Shown here piece after piece: positions 37,320-47,010 of a DNA stretch of 64,000 bases. A program made the position numbers and the translations under genes. The notes below the pieces were generated by a model, which made no database searches, was not told the origin of the DNA, and was given only the letters and a program-made list of their open reading frames with translations. The DNA is taken from positions 2,046,501-2,110,500 of the forward strand of contig NZ_PGEP01000001.1 of the NCBI RefSeq assembly GCF_002797445.1. The letters run 5' to 3'. The DNA is from Acidovorax sp. 69 (GTDB taxonomy: Bacteria; Pseudomonadota; Gammaproteobacteria; Burkholderiales; Burkholderiaceae_C). Each line of letters opens with the position of its first letter. Position 1 is the stretch's first letter.

Positions 37320-38651
37320 ATGCCCCAATCCCTCAACGAACAACTGAGCCGCGAACAGCAAATTGCCGCCCTGGAAAAAGACTGGGCCCAGAACCCCCGC
37401 TGGAAGGGTGTGAAGCGCGGTTACTCTGCTGCCGACGTGGTGCGCCTGCGCGGCTCGCTGCCGATTGAGCACACGCTGGCCAAGCGCGGCGCTGAGAAGC
37501 TGTGGGACAAGATCAATGGCGGCGCCAAAAAGGGTTACGTCAACGCCTTTGGCGCCATTTCTGCGGGCCAAGCCATGCAGCAAGCCAAGGCCGGCCTGGA
37601 AGCCGTGTACCTGTCGGGCTGGCAAGTCGCCGCTGACGGCAACACATCCGAAACCATGTACCCCGACCAGTCGCTGTACGCCTACGACTCGGTGCCCACC
37701 ATGGTGCGCCGCATCAACAACACCTTCAAGCGCGCTGACGAAATCCAGTGGGGCCGTGGCATCAACCCCGGCGACAAGGAATTCATCGACTACTTCCTGC
37801 CCATCGTGGCCGACGCCGAAGCCGGCTTCGGCGGCGTGCTGAACGCCTTCGAACTCATGAAGAACATGATCCAGTCGGGCGCTGCAGGCGTTCACTTCGA
37901 AGACCAACTGGCTGCCGTGAAGAAGTGTGGCCACATGGGTGGCAAGGTGCTGGTGCCTACGCAGGAAGCCTGCGAAAAGCTGATCTCCGCACGTTTTGCG
38001 GCCGACGTCATGGGCGTGTCCACCATCGTGCTGGCCCGTACCGATGCCGAAGCCGCCAACCTGATCACCTCTGACCACGATGCCAACGACAAGCCTTTCC
38101 TGACCGGCGAGCGCACCCAAGAAGGCTTCTACCGCGTCAAGAACGGTCTGGAACAAGCCATCAGCCGCGGCGTGGCCTACGCCCCTTACGCCGACCTGGT
38201 GTGGTGCGAAACCGGCGTGCCAGACATCGGCTTTGCCCGTGAATTTGCACAAGCCGTGCACGCTGCCTGCCCCGGCAAGCTGCTGTCGTACAACTGCTCG
38301 CCATCGTTCAACTGGAAGAAGAACCTCAACGACAAGCAGATCGCGTCGTTCCAGGAAGACCTGTCGGCCCTGGGCTACAAGTACCAGTTCATCACGCTGG
38401 CCGGCATCCACATCAACTGGTTCAACACGTTCCAGTTCGCCCATGCATACGCCAACGGCGAAGGCATGAAGCACTACGTGAACATGGTGCAAGAGCCCGA
38501 ATTCGCGGCACGTGACAAGGGCTACACGTTTGTATCGCACCAGCAAGAAGTGGGCGCAGGCTACTTCGACGATGTGACCACGGTGATCCAGGGTGGTTCG
38601 TCTTCTGTGAAGGCCCTGACGGGTTCGACCGAAGAAGAGCAGTTCCACTGA
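37320..38651 (+). CDS. aceA: Isocitrate lyase
   Basis: 443 residues from the ATG at 37320, preceded by GGAG. It splits isocitrate into succinate and glyoxylate in the glyoxylate shunt. Catalytic features: [15 protein letters not shown] with the active-site Cys, the [44 protein letters not shown] core and the His-rich [11 protein letters not shown] loop. It ends STEEEQFH. It has its own terminator and a strong operator-like promoter, so it is a single-gene unit. Confidence 0.98.
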
Positions 38652-38700
38652 TCTGCGTGACTTTTGCGCCCCTTGGATGTGGCGCAAAATCCACCGCGCA

Positions 38701-38732
38701 AAAGCCCGAAGCCCTCGCTTCGGGCTTTTTTG
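38701..38732 (+). terminator. Terminator after aceA
   Basis: AAAAGCCCGAAGC (38701-38713) / GCTTCGGGCTTTTTT (38718-38732): stem with loop CCTC and a T-run. It lies 50 bases after the aceA stop and ends directly upstream of the thrS promoter. Confidence 0.9.
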
Positions 38733-38794
38733 TTGGCGGCAGGGTTAAAATGCGAACAAATTCACTGCACAAGAGCGAGAAAGGCAATCTGGTT

Positions 38795-38836
38795 ATGACA
38801 CCGCGAACTACATCGGAGATGTTGACCAGCCGCTGA
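38795..38836 (+). CDS. Candidate threonine leader peptide of the thrS operon
   Basis: A 13-codon frame, MTPRTTSEMLTSR, from ATG 38795 to TGA 38834-38836, with an AAAGG about 10 bases upstream. Four of its 13 codons are for threonine (ACA, ACT, ACA, ACC), two of them tandem at codons 5-6. It precedes a set of alternative RNA pairings and an intrinsic terminator before thrS, the layout of amino-acid attenuation. Threonine starvation would stall the ribosome over segment 38802-38808. I infer function from structure; the peptide itself is predicted, not known. Confidence 0.7.
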   Translation: MTPRTTSEMLTSR

Positions 38837-38907
38837 GGCTGGATGTTCGCGCCTGCACGAGATTGCATACCTCTTCCAGAAAGCGCGGACCCGTTCCGCG
38901 CTTTTTT
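38802..38907 (+). promoter_or_regulatory. Transcription attenuator of the thrS-infC-rpmI-rplT-pheST operon
   Basis: Segments: 1, CGCGAAC (38802-38808); 2, GTTCGCGC (38845-38852); 3, GCGCGGAC (38883-38890); 4, TCCGCGC (38895-38901). 1 pairs with 2; 2 pairs with 3 (eight pairs, one G-T); 3 pairs with 4 in a 9-bp terminator (AAGCGCGGA / TCCGCGCTT) followed by TTTTTT. The 2:3 and 3:4 pairings exclude each other. A pause-type hairpin CCAGCC / GGCTGG (38826-38842) lies at the leader stop codon. Together with the Thr-rich leader this fits threonine-tRNA sensing, with stalling favouring read-through into thrS. Confidence 0.75.
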
Positions 38908-38969
38908 GTTTCTGGGCCTGGCGCGTGCCCGCACCCCATTGCACTGATTGAAAAGAAAGAGTTACTCCC

Positions 38970-40889
<1,920 letters not shown>

Positions 40890-40975
40890 TTTTTGTTGAA
40901 AAAATGCTTTGGCGCATGTCAGTTGTGCGGTTGTAGCTACAAAGTTTGTAGTAATTTGATTGAAGGAAGATAGCC

Positions 40976-41575
40976 ATCGCTACTGAATTTCGTGATCGTC
41001 GCCACCGTGAAGAGCGCAAGCACCGCCTGAACCGTGAAATCATGGCCCCGGAAGTTCGACTTTCCGGTCCTGAGAACGAGCCTTTGGGCGTTGTCAGCCT
41101 GATGGAGGCCTTGCGCATGGCGGGTGAGTTGGATGTGGACTTGGTGGAAATCGCCGCTACGGCGAATCCTCCGGTGTGTCGTCTCATGGACTACGGCAAG
41201 TTCAAGTACCAAGAGCAAAAGCGTGCGGCTGAAGCCAAGGCCAAGCAAACGGTCATCGAGATCAAGGAAGTCAAGTTCCGTCCCGGTACGGACGATGGCG
41301 ACTACAACATCAAGATGCGCAACATCCGCCGCTTTCTGGCGGATGGTGACAAGTGCAAGATCACGCTGCGGTTCCGCGGGCGTGAAATTACGCACCAGGA
41401 GCTGGGTTTGGCGCTGCTCAACCGCATTCGCGATGAGTTGGCCGATTCGATCCTCATTGAGCAGTTTCCCAAGCTGGAAGGTCGTCAGATGATCATGATG
41501 ATCGCCCCAGGCAAGAAAAAGCCTTCTGCCAAACCTGTTGCGGAGGTAGCACCTGCGCCAGGTGCTGCTGCTTAA
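40976..41575 (+). CDS. infC: Translation initiation factor IF-3 with an AUC start codon
   Basis: 199 residues when begun at ATC 40976, which lies six bases after AAGGAAG. Beginning at the later ATG 41042 would lose the conserved N-terminus [23 protein letters not shown]-3 binds 30S, checks the start codon and disfavours AUU, AUC and AUA, so infC autoregulates through its own rare start; the same is true in E. coli with AUU. The N-terminal domain [22 protein letters not shown] and C-terminal domain [20 protein letters not shown] are normal. A Pro/Ala tail follows. Confidence 0.93.
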
Positions 41576-41755
41576 GTCGGTAGGTAGTCTGTTGAGAATT
41601 TGAGTGTTGCGCCTGTATGGGCGCGGCGGTCAGAGGTGCTGCTTTTGCGGCACCGAACGAGAGGTGAAAGCCTGTCGATAAAAGTGGCTCGGGGCCAACA
41701 AGTTTGCAGATCGGTTTGCAAACGCCTCACGAGCACAAAGAAAAGGAGCATTCAC
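41576..41755 (+). promoter_or_regulatory. Leader between infC and rpmI
   Basis: 180 bases containing a hairpin GTTTGCA / TGCAAAC (41702-41708 and 41717-41723, eight-base loop). In E. coli the rpmI-rplT pair is translationally controlled by L20 binding a structured leader in this position, so a similar role is likely, but the structure here is not homologous by sequence. Confidence 0.45.
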
Positions 41756-41959
41756 ATGCCCAAAATGAAGACCAAGAGCAGCGCGAAAAAGCGTTTCCGC
41801 GTTCGTCCCGGTGGCACCGTCAAGCGCGGTCAAGCCTTCAAACGTCACATCTTGACCAAGAAGACCACCAAGAACAAGCGTCACCTGCGTGGTGCAGTCG
41901 CTGTGCACGAGACCAATATGGCCTCGATTTCACAGATGCTGCCCGGTATGGGCGTTTAA
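41756..41959 (+). CDS. rpmI: 50S ribosomal protein L35
   Basis: 67 residues from the ATG at 41756, with AAGGAG nine bases upstream. [46 protein letters not shown] is the L35 signature. It is a basic protein of the large subunit, between infC and rplT in the usual order, starting 26 bases before rplT. Confidence 0.97.
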
Positions 41960-41985
41960 TTTACTGACGAACAAGGAGAAATAAC

Positions 41986-42345
41986 ATGCCTCGCGTCAAA
42001 CGTGGTGTAACGGCCCGTGCCCGTCACAAGAAAGTTCTAGCCCTTGCAAAGGGTTTCCGTGGTCGCCGCGGTAACGTCTACCGTATCGCCAAGCAGGCGG
42101 TAATGAAGGCTGGGCAATATGCCTACCGTGACCGCCGCACCAAGAAGCGCGTGTTCCGCCAGTTGTGGATTGCCCGTATCAACGCCGCTGCCCGTGAACT
42201 GGGCCTGACCTACAGCCAGTTCGCCAACGGCCTGAAGAAGGCATCTATCGAGATCGACCGCAAGATGCTGGCCGACCTCGCAGTGCACGACAAGGCTGCC
42301 TTTGGCAGCATCGTGGAGCAAGTCAAGGCCAAGCTGGCTGCTTGA
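41986..42345 (+). CDS. rplT: 50S ribosomal protein L20
   Basis: 119 residues, normal for L20: [59 protein letters not shown] in the basic N-terminal part. The globular part binds 23S rRNA early in assembly, and in E. coli also the rpmI leader, repressing rpmI and rplT. GGAG lies upstream of the ATG at 41986. Confidence 0.98.
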
Positions 42346-42393
42346 GTTCACGATGAGTGGCTATCTTTGTGATAGCTGCTTGCGCAATAACAG

Positions 42394-42436
42394 CAAGGGC
42401 TAGGGCTTGAAAAGGCACTAGCCCTTGTTTATTTTC
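42394..42436 (+). terminator. Hairpin between rplT and pheS
   Basis: CAAGGGCTAG (42394-42403) / CTAGCCCTTG (42418-42427), a perfect 10-bp stem followed by TTTATTTTC. It occupies the place of the E. coli pheST attenuator. No Phe-codon leader is present, so a partial terminator or a repeat-derived structure is more likely. The left flank (TAGCTGCTTGCGCAATA) resembles the dispersed palindrome family. Confidence 0.6.
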
Positions 42437-42446
42437 AAGAGTCGAT

Positions 42447-43499
42447 ATGAACGAGTTGGATTCCCTGGTCGAGAGCGCGACGAAACTGTTTGCGCAAAGC
42501 GCAACCCCCGCAGATCTGGAAAATGCCAAGGCGCAGTTTCTGGGCAAGTCGGGTCGCGTGACCGAACTCATGAAGGGCATGGCGCAGCTTTCCGTCGAGG
42601 AAAAAAAGTCTCGTGGCGCGGCCATCAATGTAGCCAAGCAGGCCATTGAAGCCGCCTTGACTGCGCGCCGCCAGGCCTTGGCCGATGCTGAGCTGCAGGT
42701 CCAACTCAAGGCTGAGGCATTGGACGTGAGCCTGCCGGGCCGTCAGCGTGGACAAGGGGGCTTGCACCCCGTGTCGCTGACGCTCGAACGCATTCAGGGT
42801 ATTTTCGGTTCGATGGGCTTTGACGTGGCCGAGGGCCCTGAGATTGAAACCGACTGGTTCAACTTCACTGCACTGAACACGCCGGAAGATCACCCCGCGC
42901 GTTCCATGCACGACACCTTCTACGTGGAAGGCGGCACGCCCGAGGCGCCCAACCTGCTGCGCACGCACACCAGCCCCATGCAGATCCGTCACGCGGTGCA
43001 GCACGTCAAAAAGCACCGTGCAATGCTCGATGCAGGCCAGTCCATGCCCGAGATCCGTGTCATTGCGCCGGGTCGCACCTACCGAGTGGACAGCGATGCG
43101 ACGCATTCGCCGATGTTCCATCAATGTGAAGGCCTGTGGGTGGGTGAGAACGTGAGCTTCAAGGACCTGAAGGTCATCTTCACTGCCTTCTGCCGCACCT
43201 TCTTTGAAAGTGACGACCTGGTGCTGCGTTTTCGGCCGAGCTTTTTCCCCTTCACCGAACCGAGCGCCGAAATTGACATCCAGTTCCAGACCGGGCCTCT
43301 GGCGGGGCGTTGGTTGGAAGTGGCCGGTTCAGGCCAGGTGCACCCGAACGTGGTGCGCAATATGGGACTCGATCCTGAGAAGTACATCGGTTTTGCTTTT
43401 GGCATGGGGCCGGATCGCCTGACCATGCTGCGCTATGGGGTCAACGACCTGCGCCTGTTCTTTGACGGCGACATCCGTTTTCTGTCGCAGTTCCAGTAA
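42447..43499 (+). CDS. pheS: Phenylalanyl-tRNA synthetase alpha subunit
   Basis: 350 residues. The catalytic subunit of the alpha2beta2 class II synthetase. The N-terminal coiled coil (about 1-85) is followed by class II motifs: [53 protein letters not shown], and the C-terminal [22 protein letters not shown]. It is read after the rplT hairpin and is followed 72 bases on by pheT. Confidence 0.98.
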
Positions 43500-43571
43500 A
43501 GCCTGCCGATTTCGCGCCGCGCGCGTGCCTGGTGGCCGCGCTCCGCACCTTCCGAACAAGAGTGTCCGACT

Positions 43572-46019
43572 ATGCAATTTCCTGAATCCTGGTTGCGCGA
43601 ATTCTGCAACCCTCCTTTGACGACGGCCGAGCTGGCCGAAACGCTGACCATGGCTGGCTTGGAAGTGGAAGAGTTGCGCCCCGTGGCGCCGCCTTTCACC
43701 AAGATCGTCGTGGGCGAGATCAAAGAGGCTGTGCAGCACCCCGATGCGGACCGCCTGCGCGTTTGCCAGGTGGATGTGGGGCAGGGCGCCCTGCTGAACA
43801 TCGTCTGCGGTGCGCCGAACGCGCGCGTGGGCATCAAGGTGCCTTGCGCATTGGTGGGTGCTGAGCTGCCGCCCGGCGATGATGGCAAGCCCTTCCTGAT
43901 CAAGGTGGGTAAGCTGCGTGGCGTGGAAAGCCAGGGCATGCTGTGCTCGGCGCGCGAACTCAAGCTGTCTGAAGACCATGGCGGTTTGCTGGAGCTGGAC
44001 GCCGCTGCTCGCTTGGGTCAGGACATTCGCGAGCATCTGAACCTGGACGACACGCTGTTCACGCTGAAGCTCACGCCCAACCTGGCGCACTGCCTGAGCG
44101 TGTTCGGCATTGCACGTGAAGTCTCGGCATTGACCGGTGTGCCGCTGACCCAGCCCACCTTTCCGGTGGTGACATCTTCGGTGCCGGACACGCTGGCTGT
44201 GAAGGTGAGTGCCCCTGACCTGTGCGGCCGTTTCTCCGGCCGTGTGGTGCGCAACGTGAACACGCGCGCAGCCACTCCGCAATGGATGTTGGACCGCCTG
44301 GCCCGCTGTGGCCAGCGTGGCGTGTCGCCGCTGGTGGACATCTCCAACTACGTGATGTTTGAGCTGGGCCGCCCATCGCACATCTTCGACTTGGACAAGA
44401 TCCACGGGGGCCTGGATGTTCGCTGGGGTCAGCCCGGCGAGCAGCTCAAATTGCTCAACGGCAACACCATCACGGTGGACGACAAGGTCGGTGTGATCTC
44501 TGATGCGCAGCAGGTTGAATCGCTCGCCGGCATCATGGGCGGCGATGCCACCGCCGTGTCTGATGACACAAAGCACATCTATATCGAGGCCGCTTTCTGG
44601 TGGCCCAAGTCCGTGGCAGGACGCTCGCGCCGCTACAACTTCTCGACCGACGCCGGCCACCGCTTCGAGCGCGGCGTGGACCCGGAACTGACGGTGGAAC
44701 ACATCGAACGCATCACCCAACTGGTGATCGACATCTGCGGCACGCCCGAGACGGCCTGCGGCCCGATGGACGACCAGCGCGTGAACCTGCCTGCACCCCT
44801 GCCCGTGACGCTCCGCGTGGCGCGCGCTGCCAAGGTCATCGGCATGCCGCTCACTCAAGCGCAATGTGTCGACGTGCTCAAGCGGCTGGGCCTGCCGCTC
44901 ACCGAGGGGGATGGCACCGTCACGGTGGCTCCACCAGCCTACCGCTTCGACATCACCATTGAAGAAGACCTGATCGAAGAAGTCGCGCGCATGGTGGGCT
45001 ACAACAACCTGCCCACTACACCGCCGCTGGCTCCCATCACGCCCAAACTGGCGCTGGAGGCCACGCGCAGCCCATTTGCCGTGCGTCGCACCCTCGCGGG
45101 ACTGGGCTTTCAGGAAACCATCAACTTCAGTTTTGTAGAAGAGCGCTGGGAGCATGAGTTGGCGGCAAACCCTCAGCCCATCAAGCTGCTCAATCCCATC
45201 GCCAGTCAGATGAGTGTCATGCGCTCAACGCTGTTGGGTTCCTTGCTACAAGTTTTGAAGTTCAATCTGGATCGCAAAGCAGAACGTATTCGCATTTTCG
45301 AGCTGGGCCGTGTGTTTTTGCGCGATGCTGGTGTGCTCAACACCGACACCACTGTGGAAGGCTTTCACCAGCCCATGCGAGTGTCTGGCCTGGCTTATGG
45401 TCCCAATGATGCGTTGCAGTGGGGCCGCAAGGAGCAGTCCATTGACTTCTTTGATGTGAAAGGTGATGTGGAGGCATTGCTGGCACCGTTGCTCGCCACC
45501 TTCGAGCCGGGTACACACCCTGCTATGCATCCAGGACGCTGTGCGCGTGTGTTGGTGAATGGGCGCGCCGTGGGCTTTGTGGGCGAGTTGCATCCGCAGT
45601 GGCGCCAGTCATGGGAGCTGCCCCAGGCCCCGGTGATGTTTGAGCTGGAGCTGGATGCAGTATTGCAGCGTGTGGTGCCGCAGTTCAAATCCGTGGCCAA
45701 GCACCAGGCGGTTGAGCGTGACCTCGCTGTCGTCGTCGTTGAGCGGGTCACGCATGCCGAGATCATGGCGGCCATTGAGCAGGCAGTGCCCGGTGCCATG
45801 CTGCGATCTGCGGTGTTGTTTGACGTGTACCGCCCCAAAGCGTTGCGTGCAGGCGAGGAGGCGCCAGCAGGTGGCTTGGCGCAAGGGGAGAAGAGTCTGG
45901 CCGTGCGTGTGACTTTGGGTAGCGACGACGCTACGCTGACGGAGGCCGAGATCGATGCGGCCGTGCAAGCTGTGGTGACTCAGCTGACCCAGCGTACCGG
46001 CGCAAGGTTGCGTGTTTGA
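43572..46019 (+). CDS. pheT: Phenylalanyl-tRNA synthetase beta subunit
   Basis: 815 residues. B1 (residues 1-40, [35 protein letters not shown]), tRNA-binding OB domain ([26 protein letters not shown]), B3/4 editing domain, B5, the inactive class II core and a C-terminal anticodon-binding domain ending [11 protein letters not shown]. It binds tRNA-Phe and edits tyrosyl-tRNA-Phe. The pheT stop is followed by the ihfA coding region with almost no gap. Confidence 0.98.
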
Positions 46020-46042
46020 CGATGTTGAAGGGGAGTGATGCC

Positions 46043-46369
46043 GTGATCGAATTTGCCGTCGAAAGCCTGGAAACCCCTGCATTGACCAAGGCGCAGCTGG
46101 CCGATCTGTTGTTTGATCAGATTGGCTTGAACAAGCGCGAGTCCAAAGACATGATTGACGCTTTTTTTGATCTGATTGCGCAAAGTCTTGTCGAGGGCAA
46201 GGATGTCAAGTTGTCGGGCTTTGGCAATTTCCAGATCCGTACCAAGGCACCACGCCCCGGACGAAATCCCCGCACGGGGGAAGCGATTCCGATCAAGGCA
46301 CGCCGTGTGGTGACTTTTCACGCCAGTAGCAAGCTCAAGGAGCAGATTCAGACCACTGCATTGGCGTGA
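46043..46369 (+). CDS. ihfA: Integration host factor alpha subunit
   Basis: 108 residues from the GTG at 46043, which is preceded at seven bases by the perfect ribosome-binding site AAGGGGAG. An ATG at 46022 is an in-frame alternative with no such site, so the GTG is favoured. Conserved parts: [53 protein letters not shown] and the DNA-bending arm with [34 protein letters not shown] bends DNA for recombination and promoter control. It follows pheT as in enterobacteria. Confidence 0.96.
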
Positions 46370-46466
46370 ATTTGTACCGATTTCGTTCTCAAGATGAGGT
46401 TGGCGTCTGGCAGTATCGGCATGTCTGCGGTACGCTAGTCGGCTTTCCGGTTTGAATCCGCATTCC

Positions 46467-46904
46467 ATGGGCAACACCCTTCCTTCCATTCCTGCCAAGC
46501 GATACTTCACGATTGGTGAGGTTGCGGAATTGTGCGGCGTCAAACCCCATGTCTTGCGCTACTGGGAGCAAGAATTCACACAACTGCGCCCCATGAAGCG
46601 GCGTGGAAACCGGCGCTACTACCAGCATCACGAGGTGCTCATGATCCGCCGTATCCGGGACTTGTTGTATGACCAGGGGTTCACCATCAGCGGAGCCCGT
46701 AATCGTCTTCAGGAACTTGTGCATCCGGCACGTGATGAGTCCGTGGTAGGTGCTACAACGATGGAGTCATCGAATGCCGAGTTGCCCAGCATGTTGGTGG
46801 ACGGGGCGCGTGATCTTTCCATCGATCCGAAGAACTTCATGTTGGACTCGAATGCAGTGCGTAGAGAATTATTTGAGATTCGCGCGCTACTTTCTTTGAA
46901 TTGA
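46467..46904 (+). CDS. MerR family transcriptional regulator
   Basis: 145 residues from the ATG at 46467. The winged helix-turn-helix is KRYFTIGEVAELCGVKPHVLRYWEQEFTQLRPMKRRGNRRYYQHHEVLMIRRIRDLLYDQGFTISGARNRL. The short C-terminal part has no Cys-based metal site. Such a MerR-type protein follows ihfA in many proteobacteria (the E. coli arrangement differs); its target is not established. Confidence 0.92.
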   Translation: MGNTLPSIPAKRYFTIGEVAELCGVKPHVLRYWEQEFTQLRPMKRRGNRRYYQHHEVLMIRRIRDLLYDQGFTISGARNRLQELVHPARDESVVGATTMESSNAELPSMLVDGARDLSIDPKNFMLDSNAVRRELFEIRALLSLN

Positions 46905-46933
46905 GTTTTTTCTGCATATAATCTAAGTCTTGT

Positions 46934-47010
46934 CGGCGTGTAGCGCAGCCTGGTAGCGCACTTGCATGGGGTGCAAGGGGTCGCGAGTTCGAATCCCGCC
47001 ACGCCGACCA
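46934..47010 (+). tRNA. tRNA-Pro (anticodon GGG)
   Basis: 77 bases. The acceptor stem is CGGCGTG / CACGCCG with discriminator A and encoded CCA. The anticodon arm is CTTGC-ATGGGGT-GCAAG, giving anticodon GGG (reads CCC and CCU). The T-arm contains GTTCGAATC. D-loop and other stems are normal. A terminator follows at 47020. Confidence 0.95.

Follow-up and report, generated by a model that had tools for sequence, protein, structure and literature searches.

A probable threonine-codon leader peptide and transcription attenuator in front of thrS in Acidovorax sp. 69 and other Burkholderiales

The stretch of Acidovorax sp. 69 that we analysed (contig NZ_PGEP01000001.1; 64,000 nucleotides (nt), hereafter the window) carries thrS, encoding a threonyl-tRNA synthetase (ThrRS) whose best named match is that of Acidovorax facilis DSM 649 (98% identity in the best segment). 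A short frame, MTPRTTSEMLTSR, opens with an ATG 175 nt before the thrS start at 38970 and reads ATG ACA CCG CGA ACT ACA TCG GAG ATG TTG ACC AGC CGC TGA, with its stop codon at 38834-38836. The locus thus has two hallmarks of a classical attenuator: a short frame that is preceded by a Shine-Dalgarno sequence and holds threonine (Thr) codons, cognate to the enzyme encoded downstream, and an intrinsic terminator between this leader and the gene (Table 1).

Table 1. Positions of the leader elements, thrS and the genes behind it in the window
Feature	Position	Strand	Basis
TAAAAT, likely -10 element of leader promoter	38746..38751	+	TANAAT recurrence
5' core AAGAGCGAGAAAGGCA, conserved, including Shine-Dalgarno AAAGG (38780-38784)	38771..38786	+	53-locus alignment
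Leader peptide frame MTPRTTSEMLTSR	38795..38836	+	read from sequence; conservation; Thr enrichment
Arm 1, CGCGAAC	38802..38808	+	complement of GTTCGCG 38845-38851; 7/7 pairs with arm 2 in ribosome-free fold
Arg-Thr dicodon CGA-ACT (codons 4-5)	38804..38809	+	
Hairpin CCAGCC-GCTGA-GGCTGG, leader stop codon inside loop	38826..38842	+	folding
Arm 2, GTTCGCGC, antiterminator 5' arm, beginning 8 nt after leader stop	38845..38852	+	
Arm 3, GCGCGGAC, common to antiterminator and terminator	38883..38890	+	folding
Intrinsic terminator hairpin and T run	38878..38907	+	direct reading; independent terminator scan
thrS, threonyl-tRNA synthetase	38970..40889	+	Pfam TGS, tRNA_SAD, tRNA-synt_2b, HGTP_anticodon
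infC, rpmI, rplT, pheS, pheT, HU/IHF-type protein gene, 3' of thrS	40977..46369	+	Pfam

The first-pass annotation of this DNA had described a 13-codon frame with four Thr codons behind AAAGG, followed by three mutually exclusive pairings, the last of them a terminator, and had proposed folding the leader. Direct reading confirmed the frame and placed all of the pairings where they had been described, an independent scan recovered the terminator, and constrained folding returned the pairings as alternatives that switch like a classical attenuator. The pairing of GTTCGCGC with GCGCGGAC contains one G-U, and the terminator stem joins AAGCGCGGA (38881-38889) to TCCGCGCTT (38895-38903), with the T run ending at 38907. 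When the RNA was folded as far as arm 3, arms 1 and 2 paired in the absence of a ribosome (7/7 pairs), arms 2 and 3 paired when a ribosome was placed at Thr codon 5, 6 or 11 (8/8 pairs), and a ribosome at the stop codon left a weaker pairing of arms 2 and 3 (5/8 pairs). The plain fold of 38750-38970 is unexceptional (z -1.47; 16 of 200 shuffles fold equally well), so the case depends on comparison.

Comparison with relatives showed that the leader is conserved. Of 35 same-genus relatives searched, 32 had a thrS match and 29 were fetched, and all 29 loci carry an MTPRTT counterpart of 13-14 codons (30/30 with the window). Among the named loci, the best 80 of 585 relatives, two lack upstream bases; of the other 78, 52 have an intact leader (48 found by pattern, together with L046 and Ralstonia L095-L097) and one a decayed leader with an ATA start (L044). 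A census of 120 thrS upstream regions from 42 families, hand-picked among the listed thrS matches and scanned over about 420 nt for ATG starts, yielded an accepted leader in 42, a lower bound for the sample; orientation was verified in 120/120 of these regions and in 60/60 of a set from outside the order. Altogether, leaders were recognised before thrS in 17 groups of the order at family level (f1, f3, f4, f5, f8, f10, f14, f21, f22, f23, f28, f32, f35, f39, f44, f47 and f49), with f14, f21, f44 and f49 represented by a single leader locus each. In f8 and f32 loci (for example L120, L124 and L133), a second conserved block, CGACGCTAGTCG, surrounds the leader stop, and by eye a potential hairpin encloses that stop.

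A model of the 5' core built from sequence alone gave matches in 44 of 300 Burkholderiales genomes (30 fetched, 7 further genomes within the census and 7 outside both). The 30 best matches, window included, all lie 5' of thrS on the same strand, with the core starting 119-296 nt away, and some retain only about 19 nt of it. The window's genome holds a single copy of the core pattern, and a class-wide draw of 184 genomes gave two strong matches, both from the window's own family. The three weak matches of that draw, outside the order (E 0.002-0.007), were rejected; a look for thrS on the three fetched stretches found none. Across 108 MTPRT leaders, ACA stands at codon 2 in 107, CCG at codon 3 in 108, CGA at codon 4 in 104, and at codon 5 ACT in 98 and ACG in 10, an invariance partly due to search patterns that required parts of the core; codon 6, where it encodes Thr, uses all four Thr codons.

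Beyond this core, Thr is the commonest residue. From codon 6 on, it accounts for 175 of 758 codons in 88 distinct MTPRT leaders, about 13 standard deviations above the shuffled expectation of 86.6 (standard deviation 6.6; maximum of 500 shuffles, 105), and the +1 and +2 frames of the same leaders hold 8 and 21; glutamate (z 5.9) and lysine (z 3.9) are also raised, and proline is lowered. Diverged lineages retain Thr runs, as in MFRTTTTTGK and MFERTTTTRISR. ATG frames with at least four Thr in five codons occur 16 times forward and never in reverse in the 120 census regions, where every other amino acid scores at most two forward, and were absent in both orientations from 60 thrS upstream regions outside the order; allowing GTG and TTG starts brings one of those 60 to four Thr. 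At the weaker level of three Thr in five codons, the 120 regions give 38 forward and 10 reverse, and valine scores 50 because of tRNA-Val. These counts bear on the alternative that ThrRS itself binds a leader structure, a feedback like that of Escherichia coli thrS but acting on termination, with the frame incidental. Although GGTTATGACACCGCGAAC is conserved at the nucleotide level beyond the needs of the peptide, the enrichment vanishes outside the leader's own frame, Thr runs persist even where CGAACT is nearly all that a lineage retains of the core, and inspection by eye, the only search made, saw no conserved anticodon-like stem; we regard this explanation as quite improbable. A tRNA-Thr anticodon mimic around GGTTATG was also considered and rejected, by eye only.

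The downstream half of the putative switch was assessed in a set of 147 leaders (76 + 29 + 42), which leaves out two duplicates (L031, L032), L044 with its ATA start, L217 and L239 by judgement, L046 and L095-L097, which were found later, and the Thr-containing frames L252, L212, L246, L195, L255, L220, L164 and L235. Under a permissive rule, a terminator-like hairpin lies 3' of 146/147 leaders compared with 129/1470 shuffled segments. The antiterminator duplex averages -14.9 kcal/mol against -12.5 kcal/mol when shuffled, and in 86 leaders distinct by their first eight residues, arms pair better with their own partner than with a swapped one (-14.56 versus -13.41 kcal/mol; 0/5000 permutations as low), a difference in which relatedness remains. 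In folds of 146 leaders, the mean number of terminator 5'-arm bases paired with the arm-2 region was 2.3 without a ribosome, 7.2 with a ribosome placed on the first Thr codon following arginine (Arg), which we took as the stalled state, and 4.8 with a ribosome at the stop; stalled pairing exceeded the ribosome-free value in 109 leaders (lower in 4) and the value at the stop in 116 (lower in 9), and the real arm 2 paired above the mean of shuffled ones in 113 leaders and below it in 26. The folds thus predict an antiterminator exclusive with the terminator, by a modest margin over shuffles.

In 80 of the 120 census regions (L145-L264), the roughly 420 nt 5' of thrS include a tRNA-Val(GAC) gene, and in 2 a tRNA-Asp, so the leader may in many lineages be transcribed behind a tRNA. 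This arrangement would suit a different explanation, that the leader region yields an independent small RNA whose 3' end is the terminator, or is simply what trails a tRNA-Val transcribed from upstream, with the thrS promoter farther downstream. We judge it very improbable: the 30 best core matches all stand before thrS, and terminator arms fit their own arm 2 better than those of other leaders. In the window, tRNA-Val(GAC) is not present between 38300 and 38970 as far as read.

We conclude that the leader is very probably a ribosome-mediated transcription attenuator of thrS that senses charged Thr-tRNA; the attenuation claimed by the first-pass annotation is supported by the in-frame Thr enrichment, the recurrent terminator and antiterminator, and the switching folds. 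The analysis shows the frame, its conservation, the Thr enrichment, the terminator-like hairpin and the alternative folds in silico; promoter, ribosome stalling, read-through and response to Thr are inferred, as follows. Transcription would begin near 38758, placed by the -10-like element; TANAAT stands 45-60 nt 5' of the leader ATG in 61/77 loci, and a consensus scan did not find a full promoter. A ribosome would then translate MTPRTTSEMLTSR. With ample Thr-tRNA it would arrive at the stop codon and mask the start of arm 2, so that arms 3 and 4 could pair as the terminator ahead of thrS. With scarce Thr-tRNA it would stall at Thr codons 5-6 and leave arm 2 free to pair with nascent arm 3; the terminator would come too late, and RNA polymerase would continue into thrS and perhaps into the genes that follow. 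An untranslated leader would pair arms 1 and 2 and terminate by default.

Several observations weigh against this attenuator. When arm 4 is included, the window's minimum-energy fold is the terminator without a ribosome, with one stalled at codon 6 and with one at the stop, meaning that kinetics must decide the switch; in attenuators of this type, the outcome is generally held to be decided during transcription, a view that falls short of proof here. Just 30/146 antiterminators fall within the best 5% of their shuffles and 16 are weaker than the median shuffle, a shuffled arm 2 retains 5.9 paired bases in the stalled state, and at least five bases are still paired at the stop in 90/146 leaders (136 stalled, 42 without a ribosome). 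Leaders of f35 and f47 pair more in the ribosome-free than in the stalled state, and the protective pairing of arms 1 and 2 is overall not above shuffles (median rank 0.46), with strong pairing in four f5 leaders. Reverse-strand segments satisfy the hairpin rule in 69/147 cases, as palindromic sequences containing A and T runs should, and a stricter rule finds no hairpin at L074 and L094. Only two Thr codons are present in 20/147 leaders, such as MTPRTCFFLR. Finally, 25 of the 78 named loci show no leader, and some, including those of Limnohabitans (L037-L039), keep the -10-like element and the hairpin without it, so loss of the peptide need not entail loss of the hairpin. The comparison across Burkholderiales that had been proposed alongside the original claim mostly bears it out: Thr codons are kept and enriched and the terminator and antiterminator recur, but at some loci the hairpin stands without a leader, an outcome that had been named as a refutation. 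TAAAAT and a terminator-like hairpin lie close together before thrS, with no leader, at L037-L039, L048, L054, L057, L063, L069 and L070.

Within the leader, one codon pair is nearly fixed. The first Arg-Thr pair of the 137 leaders having one is CGAACT in 119, CGAACG in 13, CGGACT in 4 and CGCACA in 1; because many of these leaders were found through the CGA-containing core, a fair count comes from the 23 leaders of the census picked solely on Thr content, which have CGAACT in 20, CGAACG in 2 and CGCACA in 1. Across 29 long frames in the window, 7.3% of Arg codons are CGA and 6.8% of Thr codons are ACT; CGAACT occurs in 0/71 Arg-Thr pairs (CGAACC or CGAACG in 5). An RNA helix accounts for part of this constancy, GTTCG being found between stop and terminator in 58/146 leaders against 11.8 expected. 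As a general partner of CGAAC, GTTCG was rejected: it is absent from all six f5 and all four f28 leaders. Three Rhodoferax loci retain CGA opposite GTCCG, although CGG would pair better, and a leucine or proline codon replaces CGA, with ACT kept, in 7/7 f23 leaders, 2/3 f3 leaders and one f10 leader. That a leader with CGA as its rare-codon stall point senses Arg or general translation speed instead of Thr is the least probable explanation of all, since from codon 6 on Arg is depleted (73 against 92.5 shuffled) and Thr doubled, even if CGA is almost fixed and some leaders have only two Thr codons.

For the Thr-sensing attenuator, the pair may have a further meaning. CGA is read through an inosine-A wobble pair, which disturbs the next codon. 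The near-fixed CGA-ACU could conceivably be the attenuator's sensor throughout the order (the Betaproteobacteria of older nomenclature), with CGA in the P site and the first critical Thr codon in the A site, a context that would make stalling more likely when Thr-tRNA is short; we put this forward tentatively and think it rather doubtful. The Rhodoferax loci and the f5 and f28 leaders without GTTCG lead to this codon-context hypothesis, under which selection targets the dicodon beyond amino acids or RNA helix, and which would account for CGA-ACT being kept where the opposite RNA arm mismatches. The pair offers a natural system for a direct test of codon-context effects on attenuation.

If the genes behind thrS are co-transcribed with it, Thr supply possibly governs initiation factor 3, the ribosomal proteins L35 and L20, and phenylalanyl-tRNA synthetase as well. 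By eye, infC (40977-41575) has an apparent AUC start at 40977, comparable to E. coli infC, which unusually begins with AUU.

No report of a thrS leader peptide was found in the literature at the level of titles and the beginnings of abstracts, and Lopatovskaya, Seliverstov and Lyubetsky (2010; pmid 20198868) may already predict it. The available part of PMC2965389 predicts histidine leader peptides for Bacillus hisS*/hisZ and does not describe one for thrS; those leaders, too, are predicted to attenuate synthetase genes by a leader peptide, but in Firmicutes and with histidine. If our reading is true, these bacteria have a further logic of thrS control, in addition to the known autoregulation by ThrRS and the T-boxes.

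Rfam has no match at 38795-38907, where the gathering score of the Thr_leader covariance model (RF00506) was not reached. At 38660-38734, where a hairpin follows aceA, Thr_leader gave a weak match (E 0.49; 24 bits against a cut-off of 55) that is taken as chance. A scan of nine loci (one, L228, leaderless) gave six sub-threshold matches to HPnc0260 and one to BSnc120, those to HPnc0260 at L115, L124, L189, L106 and L138 overlapping an upstream tRNA or the leader region. RF00506 is the gammaproteobacterial thrABC leader, which likewise joins a Thr-rich leader peptide to an attenuator but governs biosynthesis genes. T-box leaders of Firmicutes share antitermination in answer to uncharged tRNA, but there the RNA of the synthetase gene binds the tRNA directly, and no Rfam T-box match was found at 38000-47000 of the window or in the eight leader-bearing loci. 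The E. coli thrS operator also exerts feedback on thrS, but through translational repression by bound ThrRS, without a leader peptide. In the E. coli pheM-pheST attenuator, as proposed here, a leader peptide with cognate codons regulates an aminoacyl-tRNA synthetase gene by attenuation, the codons and gene being phenylalanine and pheST there, and Thr and thrS here.
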